A stretch of DNA of 35,171 nt from Bacteroidales bacterium (GTDB lineage: Bacteria; Bacteroidota; Bacteroidia; Bacteroidales; FEN-979). Position 1 is the first letter of the stretch; each line of letters starts with the position of its first letter. A program made the position numbers and the translations under genes. Of this stretch, positions 21,157-34,367 are shown piece after piece. Location: contig JACZJJ010000068.1 in the NCBI GenBank assembly GCA_014860625.1, forward strand, positions 1-35,171, written 5' to 3'. The notes beneath the pieces were generated by a model, which saw only the letters and a list, made by a program, of their open reading frames with translations, was not told the DNA's origin and did not search any database.

Positions 21157-21699
21157 TCAGAAATTACTCCTGAAGTCCGCAAACAATGGCGCCACCTCAT
21201 CCTTCGGAGAGATTACCGGGTCGCTGATGCCCCAGTCAACGTTAAGATCCGGATCATTCCACCGGATAGCTCCTTCCGACTCTTTGTTGTAGATGTTCGT
21301 ACACTTGTAGAAGAAAATCGTATCATCTTCAAGAGTCAGGAACCCGTGTGCAAACCCGGCCGGCACCCAATACATCCATTTGTTCTGCCCTGATAGAACG
21401 ATGGAAGACCACTTTCCGTATGTAGGCGATTCCTTTCGAATATCCACCGCCACATCCAGTACCGATCCGCGCATCACCCGCACCAGTTTCCCCTGGGCAA
21501 AAGGAGGGTTCTGGAAATGAAGTCCGCGCAACACCCCTCTTTTCGACTTCGATTCATTGTCTTGCACGAAGGTCACATCAATTCCATGAGAAAGGAATTT
21601 AGCCTGATTAAATGACTCAAAGAAGTAACCCCGCTCATCCTCAAACACATCCGGCTTGATGATCAGCAGACCTTCCAGGGGAGTTTTAATAATTTCCAT
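21157..21699 (-). CDS. rfbC: dTDP-4-dehydrorhamnose 3,5-epimerase
   Basis: 180 residues, the standard length. It has RGVLRGLHFQNPPFAQGKLV with catalytic His at about 61, then YWVPAGFAHGFLTLEDDT and the conserved tyrosine at about 131 (FFYKCTNIYNKESEG). It epimerises dTDP-4-keto-6-deoxyglucose at C3 and C5 on the way to dTDP-L-rhamnose for surface glycans. The partner genes rmlA, rmlB and rmlD are not in the window; the gene lies between lpdA and a lytic transglycosylase, with repeat arrays in both flanking spacers. Confidence 0.96.
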   Translation of the reverse strand: MEIIKTPLEGLLIIKPDVFEDERGYFFESFNQAKFLSHGIDVTFVQDNESKSKRGVLRGLHFQNPPFAQGKLVRVMRGSVLDVAVDIRKESPTYGKWSSIVLSGQNKWMYWVPAGFAHGFLTLEDDTIFFYKCTNIYNKESEGAIRWNDPDLNVDWGISDPVISPKDEVAPLFADFRSNF

Positions 21700-21701
21700 A
21701 T

Positions 21702-21741
21702 CTCGCTATTTCACCATTTCACTATTTCACCATTTCACTAC
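21702..21741. repeat. Octamer array bridging lpdA stop and rfbC start
   Basis: Five units: CTCGCTAT, TTCACCAT, TTCACTAT, TTCACCAT, TTCACTAC. The last contains the lpdA stop codon (CTA at 21738-21740). The array ends 2 bp before the rfbC start codon (CAT at 21697-21699), so the spacer is almost wholly repeat. Confidence 0.9.
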
Positions 21742-23186
21742 AGGTGCACACACTCCCCGTAAGCTTGCGCCACCGCCTCCATGATCGCTTCCGACATGGT
21801 AGGGTGGGGGTGAACAGCTTCGATGATCTCTTTTCCGGTGGTCTCGAGTTTTCGTGCAACGACCACCTCGGCGATCATTTCAGTCACGTTGTCTCCGATC
21901 ATATGAGCACCCAGCCATTCCCCGTATTTGGCATCAAAGATCACCTTCACAAACCCTTCGCGGTTTCCCGATGCTGTTGCCTTCCCGGATGCCGTGAAAG
22001 GAAACTTCCCAACGCGTATCTCGTATCCCGCATCTTTGGCTTGTTGTTCGGTCATGCCAACAGAAGCAATTTCAGGATTGGTATAGGTACATCCCGGAAT
22101 GTTACCATAATCCAGAGGCTCTGCATCTTTGCCGGCAATCTTTTCCACGCAGATAATTCCTTCGTGGGATGCCACATGAGCAAGGGCCTGACCGTGAACG
22201 ATATCGCCGATGGCGTAATAGCCATCAACATTGGTTTTGTAAAAGTCATCAACGACTACTTTGCCTTTCTCGGTGTTGATCCCCGTCTCTTCAAGCCCGA
22301 TACCCTCCAGGTTGGTGGCAATGCCAACAGCACTAAGTACGATCTCGGCTTCGATTACCTCTTCACCCTTTTTGGTCTTCACTGTCACCTTGCAGAGTTT
22401 GCCTTTTGTATCCACGGACTCAACGTTGGCGTCGGTCATTACCTTCATACCTGCCTTCTTGAATTCACGGGCCAGTGTTTTCGACACCTCTTCATCTTCC
22501 AGAGGAACCACATTCGGCATCAGCTCAATGAGTGTAACCTGAGTCCCTATTGAGTTGTAGAAATAAGCGAACTCGGAGCCGATAGCTCCCGACCCGATCA
22601 CAACCATTGATTTCGGCTGCTTTGGTAAATTCATGGCTTCGCGGTAGCCGATGATTTTTTTGCCATCCTGCTTGAAATTCGGAAAATCCCTTGAACGGGC
22701 CCCTGTGGCAATGATGATGTGTTTCGCTGAATATTCAGTTTGCTTCGCTTCGCTCGCAATGACATTACTGCCCACTTCAGACTGCCCACTGCCAACTGAA
22801 GACGAGGCATGCCCCGTCTCTACCTGAACAATTTTCCCCGGCTTCACGCGTCCCGTTCCCTCCAGCACATCCACCTTGTTTTTCTTCAGCAGAAACTGAA
22901 TCCCTTTGCTCATCTGATCGGCAACCCCGCGACTGCGCTTGACAATAGCTTCGAAATCCGGTTCCGCTTCACCGGCAGTAATTCCATAACTGGAAGCGTG
23001 TTTCAGGTAATTAAACACCTGTGCGCTCTTCAGGAGAGCTTTCGTGGGAATGCAACCCCAGTTCAGGCAAATACCGCCCAGTTCGGCACGTTCTACAACG
23101 GCTACTTTGAATCCCAATTGGGCAGCCCTGATGGCAGCCACATATCCACCCGGACCGCTGCCAATGACGATAATATCGTAATTCAT
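21738..23186 (-). CDS. lpdA: Dihydrolipoyl dehydrogenase with repeat-derived insertion
   Basis: 482 residues. FAD motif GSGPGGYVAA near 9-18, redox disulfide GGICLNWGCIPTK (Cys40, Cys45), ATG motif HIIIATGARS at about 156-165, NAD motif VVIGSGAIGSEFAYF, and the C-terminal HPHPTMSEA active-site His-Glu pair are all present. It regenerates lipoamide in 2-oxoacid dehydrogenase complexes or the glycine cleavage system. Most homologues are about 450-470 residues. The excess is a low-complexity segment at about 122-150 (GHASSSVGSGQSEVG, then NVIASEAKQ) placed just before the ATG motif and encoded by dispersed-repeat DNA. The frame is intact, so the protein may still be active. No lipoyl-complex genes are adjacent. 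Confidence 0.95.
   Translation of the reverse strand: MNYDIIVIGSGPGGYVAAIRAAQLGFKVAVVERAELGGICLNWGCIPTKALLKSAQVFNYLKHASSYGITAGEAEPDFEAIVKRSRGVADQMSKGIQFLLKKNKVDVLEGTGRVKPGKIVQVETGHASSSVGSGQSEVGSNVIASEAKQTEYSAKHIIIATGARSRDFPNFKQDGKKIIGYREAMNLPKQPKSMVVIGSGAIGSEFAYFYNSIGTQVTLIELMPNVVPLEDEEVSKTLAREFKKAGMKVMTDANVESVDTKGKLCKVTVKTKKGEEVIEAEIVLSAVGIATNLEGIGLEETGINTEKGKVVVDDFYKTNVDGYYAIGDIVHGQALAHVASHEGIICVEKIAGKDAEPLDYGNIPGCTYTNPEIASVGMTEQQAKDAGYEIRVGKFPFTASGKATASGNREGFVKVIFDAKYGEWLGAHMIGDNVTEMIAEVVVARKLETTGKEIIEAVHPHPTMSEAIMEAVAQAYGECVHL
22738..22823 (-). repeat. Composite dispersed-repeat insertion inside lpdA
   Basis: Three repeat types lie in line on the coding strand: GTAGAGACGGGGCATGCC with TCGTC (GCATGC-centred palindrome, 22823-22801); a TGGCAGTGGGCAGT-like word with a second GTGGGCAGT copy (about 22797-22765); and GTCATTGCGAGCGAAGCGAA followed by GCAAAC (about 22764-22738). 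The first resembles the copies at 26725-26797 and the last the core at 23861-23954. Translation gives ETGHASSS...NVIASEAKQ without a stop. Confidence 0.85.
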
Positions 23187-23322: not shown

Positions 23323-23355
23323 CGGATGAGGATATCGTATCACCTCATACTCACT

Positions 23356-23390
23356 TCCCTACCTCCCTACCTCCCTACCTCCCTACCTCA
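23356..23390. repeat. Octamer array (TCCCTACC)x4 next to a stop codon
   Basis: Four perfect TCCCTACC units (23356-23387) directly adjoin the TGA stop (TCA at 23388-23390) of the small membrane protein gene. Read on the gene strand it is TGA followed by GGTAGGGA units. Confidence 0.9.
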
Positions 23391-23843
23391 TTCCTTTACC
23401 AATTCACAATACTTCCCCCATGCCCTCAGGAACCTCACCGCCGAAAGCAGCAACGGTGTGGCCATGGTGATAAAAAAGAGGGAGATCCATTTTTGGTCGA
23501 TCAAACCGGTTTTGCGGACAAGAACTCCGGAGGTAATCATGATGGCCATCAACAGGTAACTTTTCCAGTCGAAAAAAGAGAACACACACGGACGCAGGAT
23601 TTCAAGGGAGCGGATCCGGGTGATGTGTTTAAGGGAAACACGAAGAAAAAGAAGATGGAAAAAGATCAGACCAGCGATCACAGCAAGTACAATCTTCAAC
23701 CAGAGCATCGACATTTCAGGTAACATCGTGATGCCCCTGAATAGCAGAAACCCTCCGGCAAAAAGCCACACGGCGGCTGCAACGAGCAGCAGTTGCCGCT
23801 TTGGAATCCCCGGTTTCATCTCAAAAATCACCCGCTTCACCAT
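23388..23843 (-). CDS. Small polytopic membrane protein of unknown function
   Basis: About 151 residues from the ATG at 23841-23843 (MVKRVIFEMKPGIPKRQLLL); a GTG two codons upstream is also possible. Four hydrophobic segments are visible: LLLVAAAVWLFAGGFLLFRG, MLWLKIVLAVIAGLIFFHLL, SYLLMAIMITSGVLVR and ISLFFITMATPLLLSAVRFL. A basic stretch LKHITRIRSLEIL lies between the second and third. I do not recognise a named family. The start codon sits inside a repeat array (ATAGTGAAAATGGTGAAG on the gene strand) and the stop adjoins another, so both gene borders are repeat-marked. It looks like a real gene by its consistent membrane pattern and position between M14 peptidase and lpdA. Confidence 0.68.
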   Translation of the reverse strand: MVKRVIFEMKPGIPKRQLLLVAAAVWLFAGGFLLFRGITMLPEMSMLWLKIVLAVIAGLIFFHLLFLRVSLKHITRIRSLEILRPCVFSFFDWKSYLLMAIMITSGVLVRKTGLIDQKWISLFFITMATPLLLSAVRFLRAWGKYCELVKE

Positions 23844-23964: not shown

Positions 23965-26568
23965 CTATTTATTTTTCTCCAGCAGTAACCCGTTAAACAG
24001 GAGTTTGTAACTCCCCTGTGTCGAAGCCCGGAATTGAGGGTTAAAGCCATAAAGCACTAGTTGTCCTTTCCCCCTCTGCAACCATACCATCACCGTTTTA
24101 TCTGCAAGCTTCTCCGGCTTTTCACAATAGCCGCTCATCAGGATATTCTCCTCCGGGAACGTGCCGATCACCCGCCTGTCCATGTCGAAATTGGGAATCT
24201 GGGTAGTGAATACAGGTGTACCCCTGAAGAATACACCGGTGCTCTCCGGCATACCCTGGGTGAGCGGGTGATCGTGTTTCAGGTTGATCCTGACAAACGA
24301 ACCGGGACAATACACGCCGGCCTCCCTGATTGATTTGGAAATATCACGTACCGGAAGACGGAAGGCTTCGGTGGTGTCGCCCACTTTCATGGAAAGCAGT
24401 CCCGTAAACAGCTCAGTAGATTGTCCCCATGAGAGTATGATACCTCCTTGTTCCAGGAAATCCATCAGTTGATCCATCCCCTTTTTGCCTATTCCTTTCG
24501 TAAATTCAGGCGGGTAGCTGGTTGGATAGACCTCATTCTCAGAGCGGTATTGTCCCTCCATCAGGATCGATTTATTATTGCTTGGAAAAACCACAACATC
24601 AAAATCGGTAGCAAAGTCTCTCTTGGCAAAATCTCCGGGTTTAACGGTTGTGAAAGGGATTCGGTAGCTGTCAAAGATGAAACGTGTCCAGCCGGCATCC
24701 ATATCGTGCATGTTGGTCTCAACCAGTGCGATCCGGGGGACCGAGAAAGATGTGAATGGCATCCGGGATTTATCTGTGAGAATTTCCGGCATCACGGTGA
24801 GTTTCGAAATCAGTTTGTCGAGTTTGGAATTCTTCCCTCCGTCGCGCATAATGATAAAATCGCCTCCTGGAGTTCTTGAAACCTCCAGCCCCAGCTCACT
24901 TGCCATGAATGCGGCTTTATAACTTTCATTGTTTGTGACACTGAATACAGCTGCCCAGTAACTTTCCGGAAGCGGTTCAAGGAGGGAAAACGGTCCATTG
25001 ATCTCATGCATGTTCAGAAACTGCGCATCCAATGGTTCAGTTACGGCAACTGAAGTCACTCCGCGATGGAGGGGCAACGACCAGGAGGTGATATCATAGG
25101 GCTTGATGAGTTCTCCATTTGGCGTATAATGACGTTCCGGAAAATTTTGTTTCTCCATTACCTCCTTGATAAACGGACGGTAGGGTTGTGCAAGAGGGAT
25201 TACAATCGCTCCGCCAGAAATGACAGTGCCATTGACTGTAAAAGGGTCATCTGTTTTGTAAACATGAACCCCGTGTTCAATCAGCAGGTTGACAATTCCA
25301 ACCATCTCACCGGGATCATGCTGCTGTGGTGGCAGGATATAAAAATAGGGTGCTTCCGTTTTTCCCTTGCTGACTTCGAGCTTGCACAGATCACTCTGAA
25401 AAGCCAGGATTGCTGCCCTGTTGGCAGTTGCAGTCTTGAGAATGGACATCATGGAGGTGATCTCATAATCAACGATATCCCCCAATCTCCACCAGCCACC
25501 CAGCCACGGATCCGGCATGTTGATACTCTTTTTGTAATCGCCCAACCCTTTCCCGATGACACTCAGTTCATTCTCCTCCACATAGACTGGCGTAGCCGTT
25601 TGCACACTTGCACATTCGGTAAGGAACCCGATCACATTTTTCCAGATGCAGGTCTCGGTGGAGCCTGGCCAGTAATCATCGAAGAGATAATGCTGGCTAA
25701 CCCCCTTCTCTCCAGCCTGTGTCATGTCCTTCATCATGTTTGATCCGAATATTCCAATCCAATTCCAGATGCCGGCATCGATGTTCTCGGCAATGGGATC
25801 GTGCGGTGGCGGAACAAAATACCTGACACCGGAGGAGCCCATCTGGTGTTTTTCCACCATCACCTGAGGATACCAGCCGGTATTGTAAACAGCTGCAATT
25901 GCCTTGGTATCCTCCTGTGAGAGGGTAATGAAATCGCGGTTGTTGTCGTGCCCTACATATTTATGGTATACTTCTGGAAGAGATGATCCTTCGTATTTTG
26001 TCCCAAGATACTTTTTGTAATGATTCACCACTTTGTCCATGCCATCCGGATTGTGGCACGGGACCAGCATCAGAACAGTATTGTCGAGCCACCCGGTAGT
26101 ATCGGGATGCAATGCCGTGATCAGTTCGTACGCGATTAATGGCGCGGCTTGCGAAGGGCCAACCTCCGTGGAGTGCATCGAAAGGGTCGCCAGGACGAAA
26201 ACCCGTCCATCTTTTACCATCGTATTCCGCTGTTCATCCGTGAGCTCCGGATTTGTGGCAAGTTGTTCGTTGATATCCCGAAGGTTCTCAAGGTTTTTGA
26301 TATTCTCTTCCGATGAGATAAACGCGATGTACATTGGCCTTCCTTCTGGGGAGTTGCCAATCTCTTTCATCACCAATCGGGGAGAACGTTGATCAAGTAC
26401 CTTAAAATAGTCGATCAGCTTTTCATAGTCGAACAGATTCCGGTCCGATCCCGGCTGGAAGCCAAAGAAATTGTTAGGAGTTTGAACAGCCTGTCCAATT
26501 GCGACATCTGTATAAAAAATCTGAAACGTCAGTGCTGTCAGAATACTGAACAAGGAGAATCTCATCAT
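23965..26568 (-). CDS. Secreted M14-family zinc carboxypeptidase-like protein
   Basis: About 867 residues from the ATG at 26566-26568 (MMRFSLFSILTALTFQIFYT, signal peptide ending in AIGQ); a frame start 8 codons upstream would precede the signal peptide. The M14 domain shows zinc ligands in LSMHSTEVGPSQ (HxxE), LVPCHNPDGMD, KYVGHDNNRDF, the third ligand region VMVEKHQMGSSG, and the region of the catalytic Glu in GFLTECAS. The C-terminal 400 residues form a second region (DVVVFPSNNKS, LEQGGIILSWGQSTE) resembling a class I glutamine amidotransferase-like fold seen in large Bacteroidota M14 proteins. Predicted periplasmic or exported; no type IX sorting domain is seen. Stop is TAG, in register with heptamer repeats. 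Confidence 0.9.
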   Translation of the reverse strand: MMRFSLFSILTALTFQIFYTDVAIGQAVQTPNNFFGFQPGSDRNLFDYEKLIDYFKVLDQRSPRLVMKEIGNSPEGRPMYIAFISSEENIKNLENLRDINEQLATNPELTDEQRNTMVKDGRVFVLATLSMHSTEVGPSQAAPLIAYELITALHPDTTGWLDNTVLMLVPCHNPDGMDKVVNHYKKYLGTKYEGSSLPEVYHKYVGHDNNRDFITLSQEDTKAIAAVYNTGWYPQVMVEKHQMGSSGVRYFVPPPHDPIAENIDAGIWNWIGIFGSNMMKDMTQAGEKGVSQHYLFDDYWPGSTETCIWKNVIGFLTECASVQTATPVYVEENELSVIGKGLGDYKKSINMPDPWLGGWWRLGDIVDYEITSMMSILKTATANRAAILAFQSDLCKLEVSKGKTEAPYFYILPPQQHDPGEMVGIVNLLIEHGVHVYKTDDPFTVNGTVISGGAIVIPLAQPYRPFIKEVMEKQNFPERHYTPNGELIKPYDITSWSLPLHRGVTSVAVTEPLDAQFLNMHEINGPFSLLEPLPESYWAAVFSVTNNESYKAAFMASELGLEVSRTPGGDFIIMRDGGKNSKLDKLISKLTVMPEILTDKSRMPFTSFSVPRIALVETNMHDMDAGWTRFIFDSYRIPFTTVKPGDFAKRDFATDFDVVVFPSNNKSILMEGQYRSENEVYPTSYPPEFTKGIGKKGMDQLMDFLEQGGIILSWGQSTELFTGLLSMKVGDTTEAFRLPVRDISKSIREAGVYCPGSFVRINLKHDHPLTQGMPESTGVFFRGTPVFTTQIPNFDMDRRVIGTFPEENILMSGYCEKPEKLADKTVMVWLQRGKGQLVLYGFNPQFRASTQGSYKLLFNGLLLEKNK

Positions 26569-26606
26569 ATTGGAAGATTTAGATACATGCAATAATACTA
26601 AAAAAT

Positions 26607-26657
26607 TTCACTATTTCACTACCTCACTACCTCACTACCTCACTACTTCGCTACCTC
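26607..26657. repeat. Octamer array YTCRCTAY (6 copies) in a divergent intergenic region
   Basis: Units TTCACTAT, TTCACTAC, CTCACTAC three times, TTCGCTAC. It lies between the divergent M14 peptidase and PLP enzyme genes, so here the array is not at a stop codon. The sequence family is that of 828-870 and 21702-21741. Confidence 0.9.
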
Positions 26658-26672
26658 TTTTCTTGTTACTCC

Positions 26673-26701
26673 TTTCACAATTATTAAAATCATTACCTTT
26701 A
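26673..26701 (+). promoter_or_regulatory. Possible promoter of the PLP enzyme/thrC cluster
   Basis: TTTC (26673-26676), 17-nt spacer, TACCTTTA (26694-26701): a one-mismatch form of each Bacteroidota element and slightly short spacing. If used, the transcript starts near 26708 with a leader of about 90-110 nt that contains both GCATGC hairpins. Confidence 0.4.
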
Positions 26702-26724
26702 TCCCCTGAAAGAAACCAACAAAA

Positions 26725-26797
26725 GTACAGACGAGGCATGCCTCGACCCTGCTAACGAAACAAACCAATGTACAGCCGGCGCATGCCCCGGCTCTAC
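26725..26797. repeat. Two GCATGC-centred palindromic elements in the leader of the PLP enzyme
   Basis: Copy A (26725-26751): GTACAGACGAGGCATGCC then TCGACCCT, with the perfect 12-bp palindrome GAGGCATGCCTC. Copy B (26770-26797): GTACAGCCGGCGCATGCC then CCGGCTCTAC, with arms AGCCGG / CCGGCT. They share the GTACAG start and GCATGCC centre with the lpdA insertion. Each can form an RNA hairpin. Confidence 0.8.
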
Positions 26798-26820
26798 GTA
26801 TGAAAAACAACACGAAACCA

Positions 26821-28296
26821 ATGTCAATAAACCACTACAAAGAGGCGGCCACACGAGCAACGCAATGGCACGCCAACTATCGGGAAGAGATGATGAAATG
26901 CCGGTTCGATACCATTGCAGTCCACGGAATCTACTCCATGCAGGAGGCCCTCGACTTTAACCAGGGATCAACCATTGAACCAATCTATATGTCTGCTTCC
27001 CAGGCCTACCGGGATTCGGATGAGATGGAAGCTGCCCTTGGTTATGAGATTCCTACCTGGTGTTACTCAAGAATTGCCAACCCCACAATGTATTACATGG
27101 AAGGTGTGATGGCGATGCTGGAGGGCTATGGCTCTGGTATTGAGACAAGCTGCATCGCCACTTCATCTGGTATGGCTGCTATCCAGAGTGCGATAGATCA
27201 GTTTCTCGTGGTGGATACGAAGCGACCTTCTGCCCCGATGAACTTTGTTGCTACCACACAGGTTTATGGTGGAACCTACCAGCAGTTTTCCATGCGCAAA
27301 GATGCCGAACGGGCTGTGGAATGGCGTAAAGTGGTGAATTCAAACGATTTGAGTGAATGGGAGTCGTTGATCGATGAAAATACCCGTTTCCTTTATGGTG
27401 AATTGCCGAGCAATCCCGGACTTGCATTCTTCGATCTGAAAGAGGTGTCTGACCTGGCACACAAATACGGGATCCCGATGATTGTGGATGCCACCGTGGC
27501 ATCACCGGCATTAATGAGACCTATCGAATACGGAGCTGATATTGTGATACAGTCTGTGACCAAATCGATGTCATCCGGTGGATCCAGTATCGCCGGAGCG
27601 ATCATCTCCCGAAAAAATATTACCTCCACCATCGATAACCCGGCGATGAAGGCCGACTTTGCCACTTATCTCAAGCTTCTTCCCAACCGGGATAACGGTC
27701 CGAACATCTCTCCGATGAATGCCTTCATGGCTCTGAATGATATCAGAACCCTCCGGATGAGGATGGATGTAATGAGCCGGAATACACAGAAAGTTGCCGA
27801 ATATCTGGAGACAAATAAGCATATCGAGAAGGTTGCCTACCTGGGACTTAAATCTCATCCATTGCATGAGCTGGCCTCAAAATACATGGTCCTGGTTGAT
27901 TCGGAGTACGATGAACTCTATGGCAAAAAAGTCAATAGATATGGTCACCTGATGTCGTTCAATGTGAAAGGCGGGGCCCAGTCAGCTCGTAATGTCTTCG
28001 ATGCATTTTCGCGTATATGGCGTGCTACAGACCTGGGCCGCATCAAATCCGTAGCTACCATTCCGGCGATCTCTACCCATTCCCAGCAAGGAGAGGAGGG
28101 CAGGAAAATGGCGAATATCCCACAAAACCTCATCCGCCTGTGCGTTGGGGCCGAACATCCCGACGATATTATCAAGGACCTGGATCAGGCTCTTGCAATC
28201 CTCGATGGGAAAAAAGTATTTGTAACTTCACCCGAATATTCTGCAGGAGGGGCCTCCTCCGCGACATTGAGGAAAGGCAAATCAGGAAATAATTGA
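26821..28296 (+). CDS. Cys/Met-metabolism PLP-dependent enzyme (divergent paralogue)
   Basis: 491 residues from the ATG at 26821; an ATG at 26800 is also open but sits 3 bp from a palindromic repeat, whereas 26821 has an A-rich context (ACGAAACCA). The fold-type I core is clear: YSRIANPTMYYMEGVMAMLE, ATSSGMAAIQSAI, VYGGTYQQF, IVDATVASPALMRP, and SVTKSMSSGG with the PLP-binding lysine (about residue 248). The C-terminal IPAISTHSQQGEE and NLIRLCVGAEHPDDIIKDLD match cystathionine gamma-synthase/O-acetylhomoserine sulfhydrylase relatives. It is longer than usual (about 400-430) with an N-terminal extension and an insertion (KYMVLVDSEYDELYGKKVNR). Substrate uncertain: O-acetylhomoserine sulfhydrylation, or a gamma- or beta-elimination. 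First gene of the amino-acid cluster. Confidence 0.82.
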   Translation: MSINHYKEAATRATQWHANYREEMMKCRFDTIAVHGIYSMQEALDFNQGSTIEPIYMSASQAYRDSDEMEAALGYEIPTWCYSRIANPTMYYMEGVMAMLEGYGSGIETSCIATSSGMAAIQSAIDQFLVVDTKRPSAPMNFVATTQVYGGTYQQFSMRKDAERAVEWRKVVNSNDLSEWESLIDENTRFLYGELPSNPGLAFFDLKEVSDLAHKYGIPMIVDATVASPALMRPIEYGADIVIQSVTKSMSSGGSSIAGAIISRKNITSTIDNPAMKADFATYLKLLPNRDNGPNISPMNAFMALNDIRTLRMRMDVMSRNTQKVAEYLETNKHIEKVAYLGLKSHPLHELASKYMVLVDSEYDELYGKKVNRYGHLMSFNVKGGAQSARNVFDAFSRIWRATDLGRIKSVATIPAISTHSQQGEEGRKMANIPQNLIRLCVGAEHPDDIIKDLDQALAILDGKKVFVTSPEYSAGGASSATLRKGKSGNN

Positions 28297-28331: not shown

Positions 28332-29567
28332 ATGCCAAAACAAGGATTTACCACCAAAGCAATTCATGCCGGAAAAATCGATTTTCATCCCGATTCCATG
28401 TCTGTACCGATTTACCAATCGGTTGCGTACCCGTACCTGGATGCCCGTGAGGCAGCCGATATCTTTTCCGGCGAAAAGCCCGGATATACCTACGGCAGAT
28501 GGGATAACCCTACGGTTGATGCATTTGAACGTCGCATGGCAGCGCTTGAGAATACCGAATCGGCCATTGCAGCATCTTCTGGCATGTCGGCTATCTTTCT
28601 GCTGGCCCATCACCTGCTCCAACCCGGAGATAATGTAGTCTCCTCCAACCGTGTTTATGGCGGAACATTCGGGTTGTTTGGTACAGGCCTTCCAAAAATG
28701 GGTGCCGAAGTAAAATGGGTGACAAACCCCGAATCGATCGAAGCCTGGGAAGCAGCCATCACTCCCCGCACAAAATTCCTGTTTGTCGAGACTCCCAGCA
28801 ACCCATCACTCTTCATCGCAGACATTCCGGCACTTGCTGCACTGGCAAAAGCCAAAGGGCTTCCGTTGGTAGTCGACAATACAATTGCAACTCCGGCATT
28901 GCAGCAACCCATTCTGCTGGGCGCCAACCTGGTAGTACATTCAACCACGAAGTATATTTGTGGAAATGCGACCAGTTTGGGTGGTATCATCTGTGGTCCA
29001 CGCGACATCATTGAAGGGATTCGCCAGAACGGCATCCGTTACCTGGGTCCGGCCATGGCCCCTCTCAATGCCTGGCTGAACCTGAACGGACTGGAGACTC
29101 TGGAGCTCAGAATGGAGAGGCACTGTCACAACGCAATGGAGATAGCCAAATTTCTCGAGAAGCATCCGAAAGTGAATTATGTCAACTACCCCGGACTGGA
29201 ATCCAATCCTTACAATAAACTGATTAAACCTCAGATGAAAGGAGTCAGTTCCCTGATGTCATTTGAACTAAACGGGACTTATGAGGATGCTACCCGGTTT
29301 ATTGATGCGCTTCAGATCATTACACATGCAACACACCTGGGTACCAATAAATCAATCGTCACTCATCCGGCATCTACCACCCATTCGGCCATGGGTGAGG
29401 TGGAGATGAAAAAAGCAGGGATCTCCCCTTCGTTGATACGCTTCTCCATCGGTATCGAAGATGAGAATGATCTCATCACCGACCTGGCTGAAGCCTTTGA
29501 TTGTGCAGAGAACCCGGCGAAATGTAAAGGTCGGCTTACACAAGACAAATATCCGTTAGCCACATAG
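28332..29567 (+). CDS. O-acyl-homoserine sulfhydrylase-type PLP enzyme (MetY/MetZ-like)
   Basis: 411 residues. The N-terminal GFTTKAIHAGKIDFHPDSMS and PIYQSVAYPYLDA, then GYTYGRWDNPTVDAFERRMA, SSGMSAIFLLAHHL, LVVDNTIATPAL, and STTKYICGN with the PLP lysine (about 207) are standard for the Cys/Met metabolism family. HPASTTHSAM and SLIRFSIGIEDENDLITDL complete it. It probably makes homocysteine from O-acetyl- or O-succinylhomoserine and sulfide. It follows its paralogue by 35 bp and is 1 bp from thrC, so methionine and threonine branches from homoserine are linked. MetY versus MetZ versus cystathionine gamma-lyase cannot be settled by eye. Confidence 0.88.
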   Translation: MPKQGFTTKAIHAGKIDFHPDSMSVPIYQSVAYPYLDAREAADIFSGEKPGYTYGRWDNPTVDAFERRMAALENTESAIAASSGMSAIFLLAHHLLQPGDNVVSSNRVYGGTFGLFGTGLPKMGAEVKWVTNPESIEAWEAAITPRTKFLFVETPSNPSLFIADIPALAALAKAKGLPLVVDNTIATPALQQPILLGANLVVHSTTKYICGNATSLGGIICGPRDIIEGIRQNGIRYLGPAMAPLNAWLNLNGLETLELRMERHCHNAMEIAKFLEKHPKVNYVNYPGLESNPYNKLIKPQMKGVSSLMSFELNGTYEDATRFIDALQIITHATHLGTNKSIVTHPASTTHSAMGEVEMKKAGISPSLIRFSIGIEDENDLITDLAEAFDCAENPAKCKGRLTQDKYPLAT

Positions 29568-29568
29568 C

Positions 29569-30933
29569 ATGAAGTTTTTTTCCACCAATCTGAAAGCAGA
29601 ACCTGTCTCGTTCAGTCAGGCTCTGCTCAAAGGCCAGGCTCCCGATCGCGGACTCTACATGCCTGAAAAAATACCCCTAATCCCTCTGCAAGAGATTTAC
29701 AGATATGCCCGGATGCCTTATTATGAGATTGCCTATAACATAATCAGGCGCTTTCTTGAAGGCGAGATCGGAGATCAGGAGTTGTTCGAACTGGTTAAGG
29801 ATGCATACGATTATGATGTCCCATTGGAGCATGTGTGCGAGCGGAAGTACATCATGCGGCTTGACCAGGGGCCTACAGCTTCCTTCAAGGATTTTGCCGC
29901 CCGGATGATGGGACGACTGATGCAGTATTACCTGAAACGAGAGAACAAGAAACTGTTGATTCTTACCGCCACTTCAGGCGATACGGGAAGTGCGGTTGCC
30001 AACGCTTTTTACGGACTCGACAACATTGAGATTGTGGTTCTCTTCCCACGAGACGAAGTCACCCCCCGGCAAAGAAAACAGATGACCACTCTTGGGAAGA
30101 ATGTCAGAATCCTTGCTCTCGATGCCAAGTTCGACGACTGCCAGGCATTGGTCAAGCAGGCTTTTTCCGATCCCGACCTGACACATCTTCCTCTATCCTC
30201 AGCCAATTCGATCAACATCGGACGCCTGGTTCCCCAAACGGTGTACTACTTCTATGCCTTTGCAAAGTTGCGTGACCCTGGTCTGGTTGACCGGATTGTT
30301 TTCTCGGTACCTTCCGGCAATTTTGGAGATATGATGGGAGGAGTGCTCGCCATGAAGATGGGATTGCCGGTCAGGAAGTTTGTCATTGCAACCAACGCCA
30401 ATGATGAATTCCCCAACTACCTCTGTTCAGGTCATTACAATAAAATAGAACCAAGCCTGAATTGCATCTCCAGTGCCATGAACGTGGGGCATCCCAGCAA
30501 TCTTGCCAGGCTTGTTTCCCTCTATGGAGGCGTGATGGACGAAAAGGGTGTGATTCATAAGCCTGCTGATCTTGAATCAATGAAAAAAGAGATCTGGGCA
30601 GCAAGTATTTCTGATACCCAAACCCGGGAAACAATTGCGGCGGCCTATCTGAAATATGGAACACTGCTGGAACCGCATGGAGCAGTGGGATGGGCAGGGT
30701 TGATGGATTACCTCCAAACTATGCCTGAATCAGAAGCCGAAAACCAGTTATGCATCTCACTGGAAACAGCCCATCCGGCTAAATTCCCGGAAGAGATTGA
30801 GAAGATCCTGAACATTGACCCGGAACTTCCGCCAAGCCTCGAAGGCATCGACCACCTTCAGGAACATATTATCGACATTGATAACAACTACGAAGCGTTC
30901 AAAGAATATTTACTTCTAACCTCTAACTTCTGA
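29569..30933 (+). CDS. thrC: Threonine synthase
   Basis: 454 residues, the long (E. coli-type) form. MKFFSTNLKAEPVSFSQALL and DRGLYMPEKIP open it; the PLP lysine is in GPTASFKDFAARMMG (about residue 107), with TATSGDTGSAVANAF and SVPSGNFGDMMGGVLAMKMG binding phosphate/PLP. It converts O-phosphohomoserine to threonine. Its last six residues (LLTSNF) and stop are encoded by the first copy of a 21-bp direct repeat that continues into the spacer before thrH, so the C-terminal end may be repeat-derived. It starts 1 bp after the sulfhydrylase gene. Confidence 0.96.
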   Translation: MKFFSTNLKAEPVSFSQALLKGQAPDRGLYMPEKIPLIPLQEIYRYARMPYYEIAYNIIRRFLEGEIGDQELFELVKDAYDYDVPLEHVCERKYIMRLDQGPTASFKDFAARMMGRLMQYYLKRENKKLLILTATSGDTGSAVANAFYGLDNIEIVVLFPRDEVTPRQRKQMTTLGKNVRILALDAKFDDCQALVKQAFSDPDLTHLPLSSANSINIGRLVPQTVYYFYAFAKLRDPGLVDRIVFSVPSGNFGDMMGGVLAMKMGLPVRKFVIATNANDEFPNYLCSGHYNKIEPSLNCISSAMNVGHPSNLARLVSLYGGVMDEKGVIHKPADLESMKKEIWAASISDTQTRETIAAAYLKYGTLLEPHGAVGWAGLMDYLQTMPESEAENQLCISLETAHPAKFPEEIEKILNIDPELPPSLEGIDHLQEHIIDIDNNYEAFKEYLLLTSNF

Positions 30934-31638: not shown

Positions 31639-32403
31639 ATGAATATCTCATTCGATCATAAAGTAGTTTTGGTTACCGGTGCTTCACGCGGCATCGGGGC
31701 AGTGACAGCACAGTTGTTCGCTGATTCTGGCGCAACCGTCGTCATTCATTACAATAAAAACAACCTGGCAGCTGAATCAACTTTTTCTTCCCTCCCCGGA
31801 ACAGGCCACTCCATTGTCCGGGCCGACATGGCTTCTGTCGATGACCTTAAAACGATGACTGACCACGTGATCTCTAAGTATGGCAGAATCGATATCCTGG
31901 TTAACAATGCCGGCATCTATGAAGAGCATGATATGGTAGAGATGCCTTTTGACGAGTTCCTTCAATACTGGGATGAGACGATCCGTGTGAACCTGACGGG
32001 ACCTGCCATCCTTTCAAACCTTGTTTCGCGCGAAATGATGAAATCCGGAGGAGGAAGAATTGTCAACGTAACTTCGCGGGGAGCTTTTCGCGGGGAGCCT
32101 ACAGCATGGGCATACGGAGCCAGTAAAGCCGGACTCAATTCAGCCGGACAGAGCATGGCCAAATCCCTGGCGAAGGTTGGGATTTATGTGTTTACCCTGG
32201 CTCCAGGTTTCGTGGAGACCGACATGGCCGGGCCTTGCCTCGTTGGTGAAAAACGTAAAGAGATCGAAAGCCAGACTCCACTCAATCGCCTGGCTCAGCC
32301 AGAAGAGATCGGCCGCGCTATTCTCCTTCTTGCCGCTGAAGGCAATGAATACATGACGGGCTGCGTGCTGGATATGAATGGAGCATCTTATCTCCGAACG
32401 TAG
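31639..32403 (+). CDS. Short-chain dehydrogenase/reductase (SDR family)
   Basis: 254 residues. Classical SDR motifs are present: TGASRGIG cofactor site near residue 14, DILVNNAGIYEEHD, serine in VNVTSRGAF, and YGASKAGLNS with the YxxxK catalytic pair; APGFVETDMAGP and the C-terminal LLAAEGNEYMTGCVLDMNGA are FabG-like. It is a NAD(P)H oxidoreductase; the substrate is not clear and fabG identity is not established because no fatty-acid genes are near. It lies 80 bp after thrH and may be the last gene of that unit. The stop TAG lies in the first unit of the long GTAGGAAT array. Confidence 0.9.
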   Translation: MNISFDHKVVLVTGASRGIGAVTAQLFADSGATVVIHYNKNNLAAESTFSSLPGTGHSIVRADMASVDDLKTMTDHVISKYGRIDILVNNAGIYEEHDMVEMPFDEFLQYWDETIRVNLTGPAILSNLVSREMMKSGGGRIVNVTSRGAFRGEPTAWAYGASKAGLNSAGQSMAKSLAKVGIYVFTLAPGFVETDMAGPCLVGEKRKEIESQTPLNRLAQPEEIGRAILLLAAEGNEYMTGCVLDMNGASYLRT

Positions 32404-32527
32404 GGACGTAGGGGGGTAGGAATGTAGGAATGTAGGAATGTAGGAATGTAGGAATGTAGGAATGTAGGAATGTAGGAATGTAGGAATGTAGGAATGTAGG
32501 AATGTAGGAATGTAGGAATGTAGGAAT
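32400..32527. repeat. Octamer array: GTAGGGAC, GTAGGGGG, then (GTAGGAAT)x14
   Basis: Sixteen 8-bp units in perfect phase; the last fourteen are identical. The first unit starts one base before the SDR stop codon, so the stop TAG is positions 2-4 of that unit. Every unit contains TAG, and the 8-bp period puts TAG in all three frames. The reverse strand encodes an HSYIPTFL-type peptide that is an artefact. Highly regular, so length polymorphism is likely. The rest of this gap (to the transposase stop at 32753) holds the pseudogene end and the IS left end. Confidence 0.96.
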
Positions 32528-32547
32528 GTGTTGAATGTTATTGGGAG

Positions 32548-32752: not shown

Positions 32753-34003
32753 TTAAGTAAATTTTTCATACCGGTCTTTATACTGATCTAATAGCTCACG
32801 TTGTATCGAGATCCAATAGAATGCTTTTCTCTTCCAGCTTTTTTGATTATGCATCAATACAAGGTAGAGTTGTTTTATTAGCCCCTTGTCGCTACTCCAG
32901 GCACCTTTTGATTTGGTCACCTTACGCATCACCCGGTGAAGAGCCTCAACAGGATTGGTTGTGTAAATCATCCTTCGGATATTTTGACTGTAGTCCATGA
33001 AAGCCATGAGTTCTTCCCAGTTTTCTTCCCATTTAGGACGTATTTCCTTGTATCTACTGTCCCATTTGGCTCCAAAGGCTTCAAGGGCTATGGCGGCCTG
33101 ATCCCTGTTGGCTGAAGTGTAGATTTTCTTCAAATCAGCACATACTTCTTTGATATCTTTGTAACTGACAAATCGGGTTGATGTACGTACCATATGCACA
33201 ATACAACGCTGTATGATGCTCAATGGGTAAATCTCCTGTATGACTTGCTTAAAGCCTCTCAGACCGTCAACACAGAAGAAGAATACATCCTCTACACCAC
33301 GCCGCTTAAGATCTTCTAAAATTAGCCCCCAATGCCGTGCGCCTTCCGATTCACTGAGATACAAACCCAGAACGTCACGTTCTCCATCAATGTTTACACC
33401 ATATACCGAATAAACTGCTTTGCTCTTCACACTGCCATCTTCTCTTACTTTGTAATGGATGGCATCTAAATAAACAATTGGGTAACAGGGGGCCAAATCT
33501 CTTTGCTGCCATGTGGTTATCTCCTCCCAAACACGGTCTGTTATAGCGCTGATGGTCCCGGCACTGATGTCCACACCATAGAGTTCGCGGAGTTGATGGC
33601 GAACATCTTCTATCGACTGCCCCCTGGCATAAAGACTTAAAATGACATCATCCATGCCGGTACTTAACTCGCGTTCCCATTTGCCAATGAGCTTTGGCTC
33701 ATGTGACCCGGCACGATCACGTGGAGTGCCAATCTCAAGAGGACCTACGCGGCTCCTAACCCTTTTTGAATTGACTCCATTGCGGCGATTGGATAATCCT
33801 GTGCGTTTACTCTCGTCAAGATGATAATCCATCTCTCCCTCAAGGGCTGCATTCACAATCGCCTGGAGAAGGTCGGTAAATATACCGTCTTCGCCAACGA
33901 CAGGATCGCCCTGATACATGCGCCTGACTACTTCTTCCCGGCGCTCTTTGTCCGGGATTAAGTCTTCTAATTTTGGTCGTTTAATTCGTTTTTTCTTTTC
34001 CAT
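32753..34003 (-). CDS. IS256-family (mutator-type) transposase
   Basis: 416 residues, full length. The DDE triad is visible: Asp180 in YLDAIHYKVR, Asp246 in FCVDGLRGF, Glu353 in TNPVEALHRVMRK. RCIVHMVRTSTRFVSYKD contains the conserved C/H region, and KLIGKWERELSTGMDD is typical of the family's N-terminal part. No frameshift or stop, so the enzyme should be active. The start codon lies immediately downstream of a perfect inverted repeat that could hide it in read-through transcripts. Confidence 0.97.
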   Translation of the reverse strand: MEKKKRIKRPKLEDLIPDKERREEVVRRMYQGDPVVGEDGIFTDLLQAIVNAALEGEMDYHLDESKRTGLSNRRNGVNSKRVRSRVGPLEIGTPRDRAGSHEPKLIGKWERELSTGMDDVILSLYARGQSIEDVRHQLRELYGVDISAGTISAITDRVWEEITTWQQRDLAPCYPIVYLDAIHYKVREDGSVKSKAVYSVYGVNIDGERDVLGLYLSESEGARHWGLILEDLKRRGVEDVFFFCVDGLRGFKQVIQEIYPLSIIQRCIVHMVRTSTRFVSYKDIKEVCADLKKIYTSANRDQAAIALEAFGAKWDSRYKEIRPKWEENWEELMAFMDYSQNIRRMIYTTNPVEALHRVMRKVTKSKGAWSSDKGLIKQLYLVLMHNQKSWKRKAFYWISIQRELLDQYKDRYEKFT

Positions 34004-34004
34004 T

Positions 34005-34042
34005 TGTCAAAGATATTAATGTTGAACCTTTTATCTTTGACA
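34005..34042. promoter_or_regulatory. Perfect 11-bp inverted repeat just upstream of the transposase start
   Basis: TGTCAAAGATA (34005-34015) and TATCTTTGACA (34032-34042), 16 bp apart. On the transposase strand the 3' arm ends 1 base before the ATG at 34001-34003, and the 5' arm overlaps the inner end of the right inverted repeat. A TATCTTTG word (34015-34008) within the arm matches a -7 element but is too close to the ATG for a normal leader. Confidence 0.75.
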
Positions 34043-34061
34043 CAGTTTTCTGAACACCCTC
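34038..34061. repeat. IS256 right terminal inverted repeat
   Basis: Minus strand GAGGGTGTTCAGAAAACTGT followed by GTCA; the partner is 32655-32678. Confidence 0.9.
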
Positions 34062-34069
34062 AAAATTTG
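34062..34069. repeat. Target-site duplication, right copy (AAAATTTG)
   Basis: Identical to 32647-32654; on the gene strand it supplies the bases of GC-CAAATTTT-type codons for A-N-F at residues 100-102 of the interrupted protein. Confidence 0.93.
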
Positions 34070-34367
34070 CCTCATCCAGATAACCACAGGCTTTCGAAAA
34101 CTTCAACCATGTCTGGGTTTCAGCAGTCTCTTGTACACAATCTGTGAGTTTGTTGGTGAATGCGGCCAGATATCTTCTTTTATACCAGCCTTCTGCTAGA
34201 TTACTACATACAGACCTTGAGGATCTCCTGATCTGATCAGTAAGTGAATATTTCTCTTCGTTGGGAAAGTTTTTTGTAAGGTGGAATATCTCCATGGCTG
34301 AACTAAAAGCCAATTTGTATACTGATAAGTCTTCCACTTGCTTGACGAATTGATTTCGTTTTTCCAT
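34062..34367 (-). pseudogene. Four-helix-bundle (S23/IVP, TIGR02436-type) gene, N-terminal part, broken by IS256
   Basis: 102 codons from ATG at 34365-34367: DLSVYKLAFSSAMEIFHLTK, FPNEEKYSLTDQIRRSSRSV, CSNLAEGWYKRR and ETQTWLKFSKACGYLDEANF. This is the four-helix-bundle family first seen as the protein of 23S rRNA intervening sequences and later in many standalone loci (avd-like). Usual length is about 115-130; the reading frame now runs into the IS and stops at 33981, giving a false 128-residue protein with an IS-encoded tail. With the fragment at 32548-32646 the rebuilt gene is about 134 codons, with one in-frame TAA at the junction. No rRNA gene is near. Confidence 0.88.

Follow-up and report, generated by a model that had tools for sequence, protein, structure and literature searches.

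Two related palindromes lie just upstream of the first gene of an amino-acid cluster in a 35,171-nucleotide contig of an uncultured Bacteroidales bacterium (genome G000; the whole contig, as analysed here, is called the window). The cluster encodes a sulfhydrylase-like PLP enzyme, a second PLP enzyme of the same Cys/Met metabolism family and threonine synthase (Table 1). Palindromes at such a place may form a dedicated regulatory leader, or they may have come there as copies of something that is spread over the genome, and the question raised by this locus is which of the two holds.

Table 1. Coordinates of the features discussed, in window positions.
Feature	Position	Strand	Description
REP copy inside lpdA	22796..22823	-	core 22800-22819; read in frame (VETGHASS...), part of a 20-residue insertion
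Probable promoter	26673..26701	+	presumed Bacteroidota type (TTTC ... TACCTTTA); TAnnTTTA followed by a GAAAG block, in 5/5 genus leaders
REP copy 1	26725..26752	+	leader; GTAC foot, 20-bp palindrome core with 2 mispairs, CTGC end
Direct repeat AAACCAATGT, left copy	26762..26771	+	its end overlaps the start of REP copy 2 by two bases
REP copy 2	26770..26797	+	GTAC foot, core AGCCGGCGCATGCCCCGGCT, CTAC end (GTAG on the other strand)
First PLP enzyme	26800..28296	+	Cys/Met metabolism family, O-acetylhomoserine sulfhydrylase-like; PF01053 above cut-off, NCBIfam models below
ACG at the congeners' start-codon place	26812..26814	+	G038 ATGAAACCA, here ACGAAACCA
Direct repeat AAACCAATGT, right copy	26815..26824	+	contains ATG 26821
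Second Cys/Met PLP enzyme	28332..29567	+	between the first PLP gene and thrC
thrC, threonine synthase	29569..30933	+	TIGR00260 above cut-off

Two palindromes downstream of a conserved promoter-like block

Both palindromes start with GTACAG and are centred on GCATGCC, as the preliminary description had it and as can be read directly in the sequence. The first reads GTAC-AGACGAGGCATGCCTCGACC-CTGC and the second GTAC-AGCCGGCGCATGCCCCGGCT-CTAC, with two and three mismatches, respectively, to the family pattern given below; both are thus diverged copies, with GTAC in place of GTAG, and the second does end 2 bp ahead of an alternative start codon, ATG 26800. At up to three mismatches the pattern has three matches in the window and none in 100 shuffles of it, which, together with the lack of any genome-wide match to the reversed pattern, rules out a chance origin of the palindromes. 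The likeness to a palindrome in lpdA, pointed out earlier, is explained by membership of the same family. The suggested ability to form hairpins also held for both leader copies, which are predicted to fold better than shuffled sequences (copy 1, -9.3 kcal/mol, z -2.77; copy 2, -14.6 kcal/mol, z -2.57); the lpdA copy is not clearly better than shuffles (z -1.22).

Judging from the alignment, the lpdA copy is an in-frame insertion. LpdA (window 21738-23186, minus strand) is 482 residues long here, 462 in 26 and 469 in three of the 29 aligned homologues. The 20-residue in-frame insertion, at residues about 121-151, combines the REP (VETGHASS) with two other repeats, one of the CAGTGGGCAG type and one of the GCGAAGCGAAGC type read VIASEAK. 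At this place G037, G038 and G039 have seven extra residues and the 26 other aligned homologues none, and lpdA of G041 carries a REP-containing insertion at the same place.

A promoter had been proposed upstream of the palindromes, at a block that we take to be of the Bacteroidota type. Its terminal TAnnTTTA and the GAAAG block after it recur in each of the five genus leaders that were read (G000, G041, G039, G038 and G037), so that the promoter is probably real; a sigma-70 scan marks 26663-26690, not this block. Since the palindromes lie downstream of the conserved block, they are probably transcribed as part of the 5' leader of the first PLP gene. Tandem repeats of 8 bp, of the CACTACCT / GTAGGAAT type, occur at 815-888, 21689-21754, 23342-23407, 26594-26675 and 32372-32547 in the window, the block at 26594-26675 being directly upstream of the leader. 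A Mutator-family transposase gene lies beside a gene for a 23S rRNA intervening-sequence protein at 32753-34367 (minus strand), their frames slightly overlapping.

The repeat family and its probable RAYT gene

A search of the genome (3.77 Mb, 171 contigs) with the pattern AGACGNGGCATGCCNCGTCT, allowing up to three mismatches, found the further copies that the preliminary description had proposed to look for: there are 44 in all, 22 of them exact, and none for the control, the same pattern read backwards. The leader palindromes are two copies of a repetitive extragenic palindrome (REP) family. The consensus unit, GTAN-AGACGNGGCATGCCNCGTCT-NTAC, is 28 bp long, within the 20-40 bp of a REP, and its copies are numerous and dispersed; 34 of the 44 are located outside ORFs of at least 100 aa in a rough ORF call, that is, in mostly noncoding places as is characteristic of REPs. 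The same call, by which some of the ORFs holding a copy are doubtful, places 20 copies in tandem spacers, five in convergent and seven in divergent ones (including the two leader copies), ten inside ORFs and two at contig edges. Doublets are common: for 17 of the 44 copies the next one is at most 150 bp away. A regular tandem array of five copies with a period of 33-34 bp and T-rich spacers was observed at L033:2173-2327.

Taken over these 44 copies and 47 in G041, the unit is laid out as a GTA foot with one free base, a 20-bp palindrome and the mirrored foot. The free stem position is paired in 82 of the 91 copies (mostly A-T 36, G-C 32 and C-G 13), compared with a mean of 33.5 in shuffles, and the fourth foot base is paired in 27, compared with 34.7, which shows a stem maintained in pairing and a GTA foot that is a tag. 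The foot at the 5' end is GTAG in 36, GTAA in 16 and GTAC in 10 of the 91 copies, and CTAC is found at the 3' end in 35, the orientation of a palindrome being arbitrary.

The Y1 transposase model PF01797 has one match in the genome, a 162-aa protein encoded on contig C15 (25.1, cut-off 23). Its best NCBIfam model is NF047646, REP-associated tyrosine transposase (RAYT), at 67.2 below the cut-off of 80. The translation contains the HUH pair DHVH and the catalytic Tyr in YILENP, the HUH pair and YI..NP motif of RAYTs, as compared by eye with the table in the available part of PMC6006769. A phmmer search of the PDB returned only palmitoyltransferase chains (E about 0.005), which were taken as chance matches. 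The TAA stop codon of the C15 gene lies within the foot of a perfect copy of the repeat (GGTAAAGACGGGGC...), and a second perfect copy follows 97 nt on. Lower-scoring matches to NF047646 exist on two other contigs of the genome, C11 (46.8 bits) and C170 (20.4 bits). The one on C170 is a 90-aa RAYT-like frame (L120:1462-1703) that aligns with the C15 protein over residues 98-158 at 62% identity, has a REP-like palindrome with four mismatches just before it and is probably a remnant.

Among the 43 genomes of the family, the best matches to the C15 protein are in G000 itself, G041 (75%), G022 (51%) and G023 (53%; identities of the best matched stretch). The same four genomes rank highest by palindromes with at most one mismatch, numbering 29 in G000, 25 in G041, 26 in G022 and 19 in G023, with six in the next genome. 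Each of the four has perfect copies next to or within its best-matching RAYT gene, the arrangement of a REPtron; the G022 and G023 genes contain an in-frame internal REP, read ETGHAPS, and the G000 gene has none. RAYT-model matches occur in 42 of the 43 family genomes, so the presence of a RAYT alone says little. Of the best 30 RAYT-model loci only the one of G000 has a copy at up to two mismatches. A double-foot palindrome was found at only 13 of 29 RAYT loci in the family, a count in which several genes are entered twice. Among the other RAYTs of these genomes, some have different palindromes and for others the script found none; at L106, L110, L118 and L213-L235 many other RAYT genes were observed with their own palindromes beside or inside them.

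Across the order (295 genomes), the exact palindrome is present in 20 genomes and a RAYT at E <= 1e-25 in 22. The two coincide in four, including the window's genome, where about 1.5 would be expected; the three others carry one palindrome copy each, and the genomes with 14, 11 and 9 copies have no RAYT at this threshold. The order-wide co-occurrence of the exact palindrome with distant RAYTs is therefore weak. At the level of loci, a double-foot palindrome is present at 14 of 23 order-wide RAYT-homologue loci, found by protein alone, versus one of 49 control loci. The controls were drawn mainly from the window's family, are unmatched to the order-wide genomes and include the sulfhydrylase matches L098-L101. 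Nine of the 14 have GTAGAGAC feet with different inner stems.

From these comparisons, the leader doublet is very probably a pair of double-foot REP copies that are cognate to the C15 enzyme, a single-domain HUH/Y1 transposase of the RAYT/TnpAREP type, and were probably spread by it. Counting against this are the NF047646 score below its cut-off, the weak order-wide coincidence and the divergence of both leader copies from the pattern. The RAYT would nick the hairpin foot in single-stranded DNA and move or amplify the copies. The palindromes being dispersed family copies linked to a matching enzyme gene, they probably reached the leader by chance insertion rather than as a purpose-built switch.

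Probable insertion history and the start of the sulfhydrylase gene

In the leaders of G039, G038 and G037, the stretch from the promoter-like block to the start codon contains neither palindrome, whereas G041 has both at homologous places. No sulfhydrylase orthologue was found in G040 at E <= 1e-100 (assembly 69% complete). As far as the presence of the palindromes goes, the proposed comparison of orthologous leaders did not support an element proper to the leader of this cluster: three of the four congeneric orthologues lack both, and the family occurs in other spacers and inside genes. The copies of G000 and G041 have oddities in common, namely CCCTG after the first and AGCCG...CGGCT in the second, and are therefore probably the same insertions. 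Ahead of the leader, G041 has a different gene. Sharing of this kind is unexceptional and gives no sign of selection in the leader, since 18 of the 44 copies are in neighbourhoods with a G041 copy; a 19th with only a 43-bp match was not counted, and exact positional sharing refers to the leader and lpdA, for which alone it was checked.

The phylogeny of the two species is seen differently by different genes. In the LpdA tree, whose alignment includes the shared insertion and represents G041 by the N-terminal part only, G000 joins G041 (100/98). In the sulfhydrylase tree, where G037 is represented by the C-terminal part only, G041 falls outside the other four congeners (99/97), which conflicts with a single vertical gain. 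G030, for which no frame was found, was left out of the tree analysis. The second Cys/Met PLP gene precedes thrC in G000 and G041 and is absent there in G039 and G037 (the interval was not seen in G038 and G040), and its presence in both supports their kinship. Its product is 94% identical in G041, with neighbours on that contig at 80-89%, and the gene is possibly a recent acquisition. A scan of assembled contigs with the sulfhydrylase yielded five loci, with identities of 73-75% for four of them and 84% for the fifth, labelled mostly as Bacteroidetes or Bacteroidales metagenome assemblies, with one labelled otherwise. The doublet would have entered the leader in an ancestor common to the window species and G041.

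An alteration of the start region had also been suspected, and the window indeed differs from its relatives. In G038 (ATGAAACCA), G039 (ATGGAACCC) and G037 (ATGATACCG), an ATG stands three codons upstream of the residue that aligns with M8 in the window ORF. This codon corresponds to ACG in the window, so that initiation has probably moved to one of the two options of the window frame, ATG 26800, two bases after the second REP, or ATG 26821. According to the predicted fold, the latter is the more open start, with unpaired probabilities of 0.98, 0.77 and 0.69 for its bases as against 0.99, 0.44 and 0.39 for ATG 26800. The first in-frame ATG of G041 precedes the second REP and the next one is 24 codons on, inside conserved sequence; the REP would then be read as the N-terminus MNQTNSKAEACLGS, which, from the reading frame, is probably the case in G041. 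In the window gene, where the doublet would be transcribed, the insertion and later mutation likely shifted translation initiation.

The word AACCAATG had been noted before each candidate start and is present at 26763-26770 and 26816-26823. It is part of an exact 10-nt direct repeat, AAACCAATGT, whose length was attained in 0.5% of cases when the letters of both stretches were shuffled 5000 times, as tested post hoc. The right copy is in the old start region, and a local duplication therefore likely made the repeat around the second REP.

Alternative readings

Repeats flanking a palindrome may also be the target duplication of a MITE or an insertion sequence. The two AAACCAATGT copies, 43 nt apart and expected in shuffles at a frequency of 0.005, enclose most of the second REP and 17 nt beyond it. 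Yet the left copy overlaps the first two bases of this REP and the right one stands 17 nt past its end, so the repeats do not mark REP borders, and by eye no such repeat is apparent around the first REP or in G041. Because the right copy resembles the start region of the congeners (G038 ATGAAACCA), local slippage or recombination explains the repeat equally. Target duplications are not known for IS200/IS605-type enzymes, and a MITE or IS insertion appears very unlikely. Less credible still, to the point of being nearly dismissed, is a leader built for the amino-acid cluster, be it a riboswitch, T-box, attenuator or protein-binding operator. Two hairpins located between a promoter-like block and the first gene would suit it, but the same sequence occurs at many other places and is missing in three of four congeneric leaders. 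A riboswitch or T-box was rejected because Rfam gave no hit up to E 5 between 26500 and 27000, and an intrinsic terminator or attenuator because no GC hairpin with a T-run was found on the coding strand in 26550-26900; the terminator scan gave only a minus-strand candidate, 26745-26732, no more than shuffles give.

The REP pair might instead have been exapted, its hairpins setting translation or mRNA decay of the sulfhydrylase/thrC transcript here and in G041. Both copies are retained at homologous places in the two genomes, the more stable hairpin (-14.6 kcal/mol) stops 2 nt ahead of ATG 26800, and the available part of PMC12306157, which deals with REPs near stop codons in translation, cites earlier work in which such REPs of E. 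coli reduce translation. Against this, 18 of the 44 copies have neighbourhoods in common with G041 anyway, the first REP is mispaired in both species (by eye), the second sits within the reading frame of G041, and the predicted folds are unlike, with two local hairpins in the window and one long pairing between the two REPs in G041. Exaptation therefore seems improbable and regulation by the hairpins is not favoured; an effect on initiation or decay is possible, and any effect of the doublet on mRNA stability or initiation would be incidental unless shown otherwise. A bolder proposal, only slightly less doubtful than exaptation, is that the mobile doublet rewired the 5' end of the gene, displacing the start region, providing a REP-encoded N-terminus in one species and a start abutting a REP hairpin in the other, with the pair tuning expression. 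More broadly, and with the same reserve, a clade of RAYTs in the order would retain one GTAGAGAC foot and outer stem throughout, the REPs of many of its genes each having an inner stem of their own, as if enzyme and repeat co-diversified by an inner-stem code.

On the preferred reading, the palindromes being probably mobile copies of the RAYT-linked family, the locus advises caution in taking hairpins in the leader of a single genome for regulators. It adds an uncultured Bacteroidota genome in which REP and RAYT clearly pair and in which a leader, a start region and an enzyme (LpdA) contain copies, and the RAYT genes with different matched palindromes make a set usable for testing recognition by the enzyme.

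Comparison with known REP systems

A literature search by the letters of the repeat found no published name for it among the matches, viewed in part. In the available passages of Di Nocera et al. 2013 (PMC3733652), which cover REPs of the GTAG and CGTC types, among them ones that overlap RAYT genes or lie within genes, the GTAG-tagged REPs and their RAYTs resemble the present system in the short palindromes, the GTAG-type tag, the doublets and clusters, the in-gene copies and the overlap with RAYT ends. They differ from it in that the tag here is GTA with a variable base and stands at both ends, and the phyla given there for GTAG repeats are Proteobacteria, Cyanobacteria, Chloroflexi and PVC, Bacteroidetes being listed for CGTC repeats. 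The CGTC-tagged type, described in those passages with an unpaired CGTC and no transposase, came into question because the stem here ends in CGTC; it was rejected, as these bases are paired within the stem and the family comes with a RAYT. Rickettsia palindromic elements are likewise read in frame in proteins, as here in lpdA and probably in the N-terminus of the G041 sulfhydrylase, but they have a different sequence and in the same passages are counted with the CGTC repeats, with no dedicated transposase reported. REPINs and BIMEs, as presented in the available parts of PMC3116915 and PMC6006769, also consist of two REPs with a short spacer; since each unit here is self-complementary, their opposite orientation cannot be assessed.

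A further description, in the available part of PMC6006769, is that of "double foot" REPs, which go with TnpAREP subclass 2.4 and are abundant in Bacteroidetes and Cyanobacteria. Their GT[AG]G 5' and C[TC]AC 3' ends are found in part of the copies here, and so is the in-frame REP within the transposase gene, in G022 and G023. That REP is said there to be frequent but not universal in the subclass, and the G000 RAYT lacks it; its motifs DHVH and YILENP also differ from the NH[IFV]H and YIxNNP given for subclass 2.4, of which it is a candidate member. REPs and RAYTs being known already, the present family is a further example, and the double-foot description, as far as the available text goes, fits it, the G000 RAYT without an internal copy notwithstanding.
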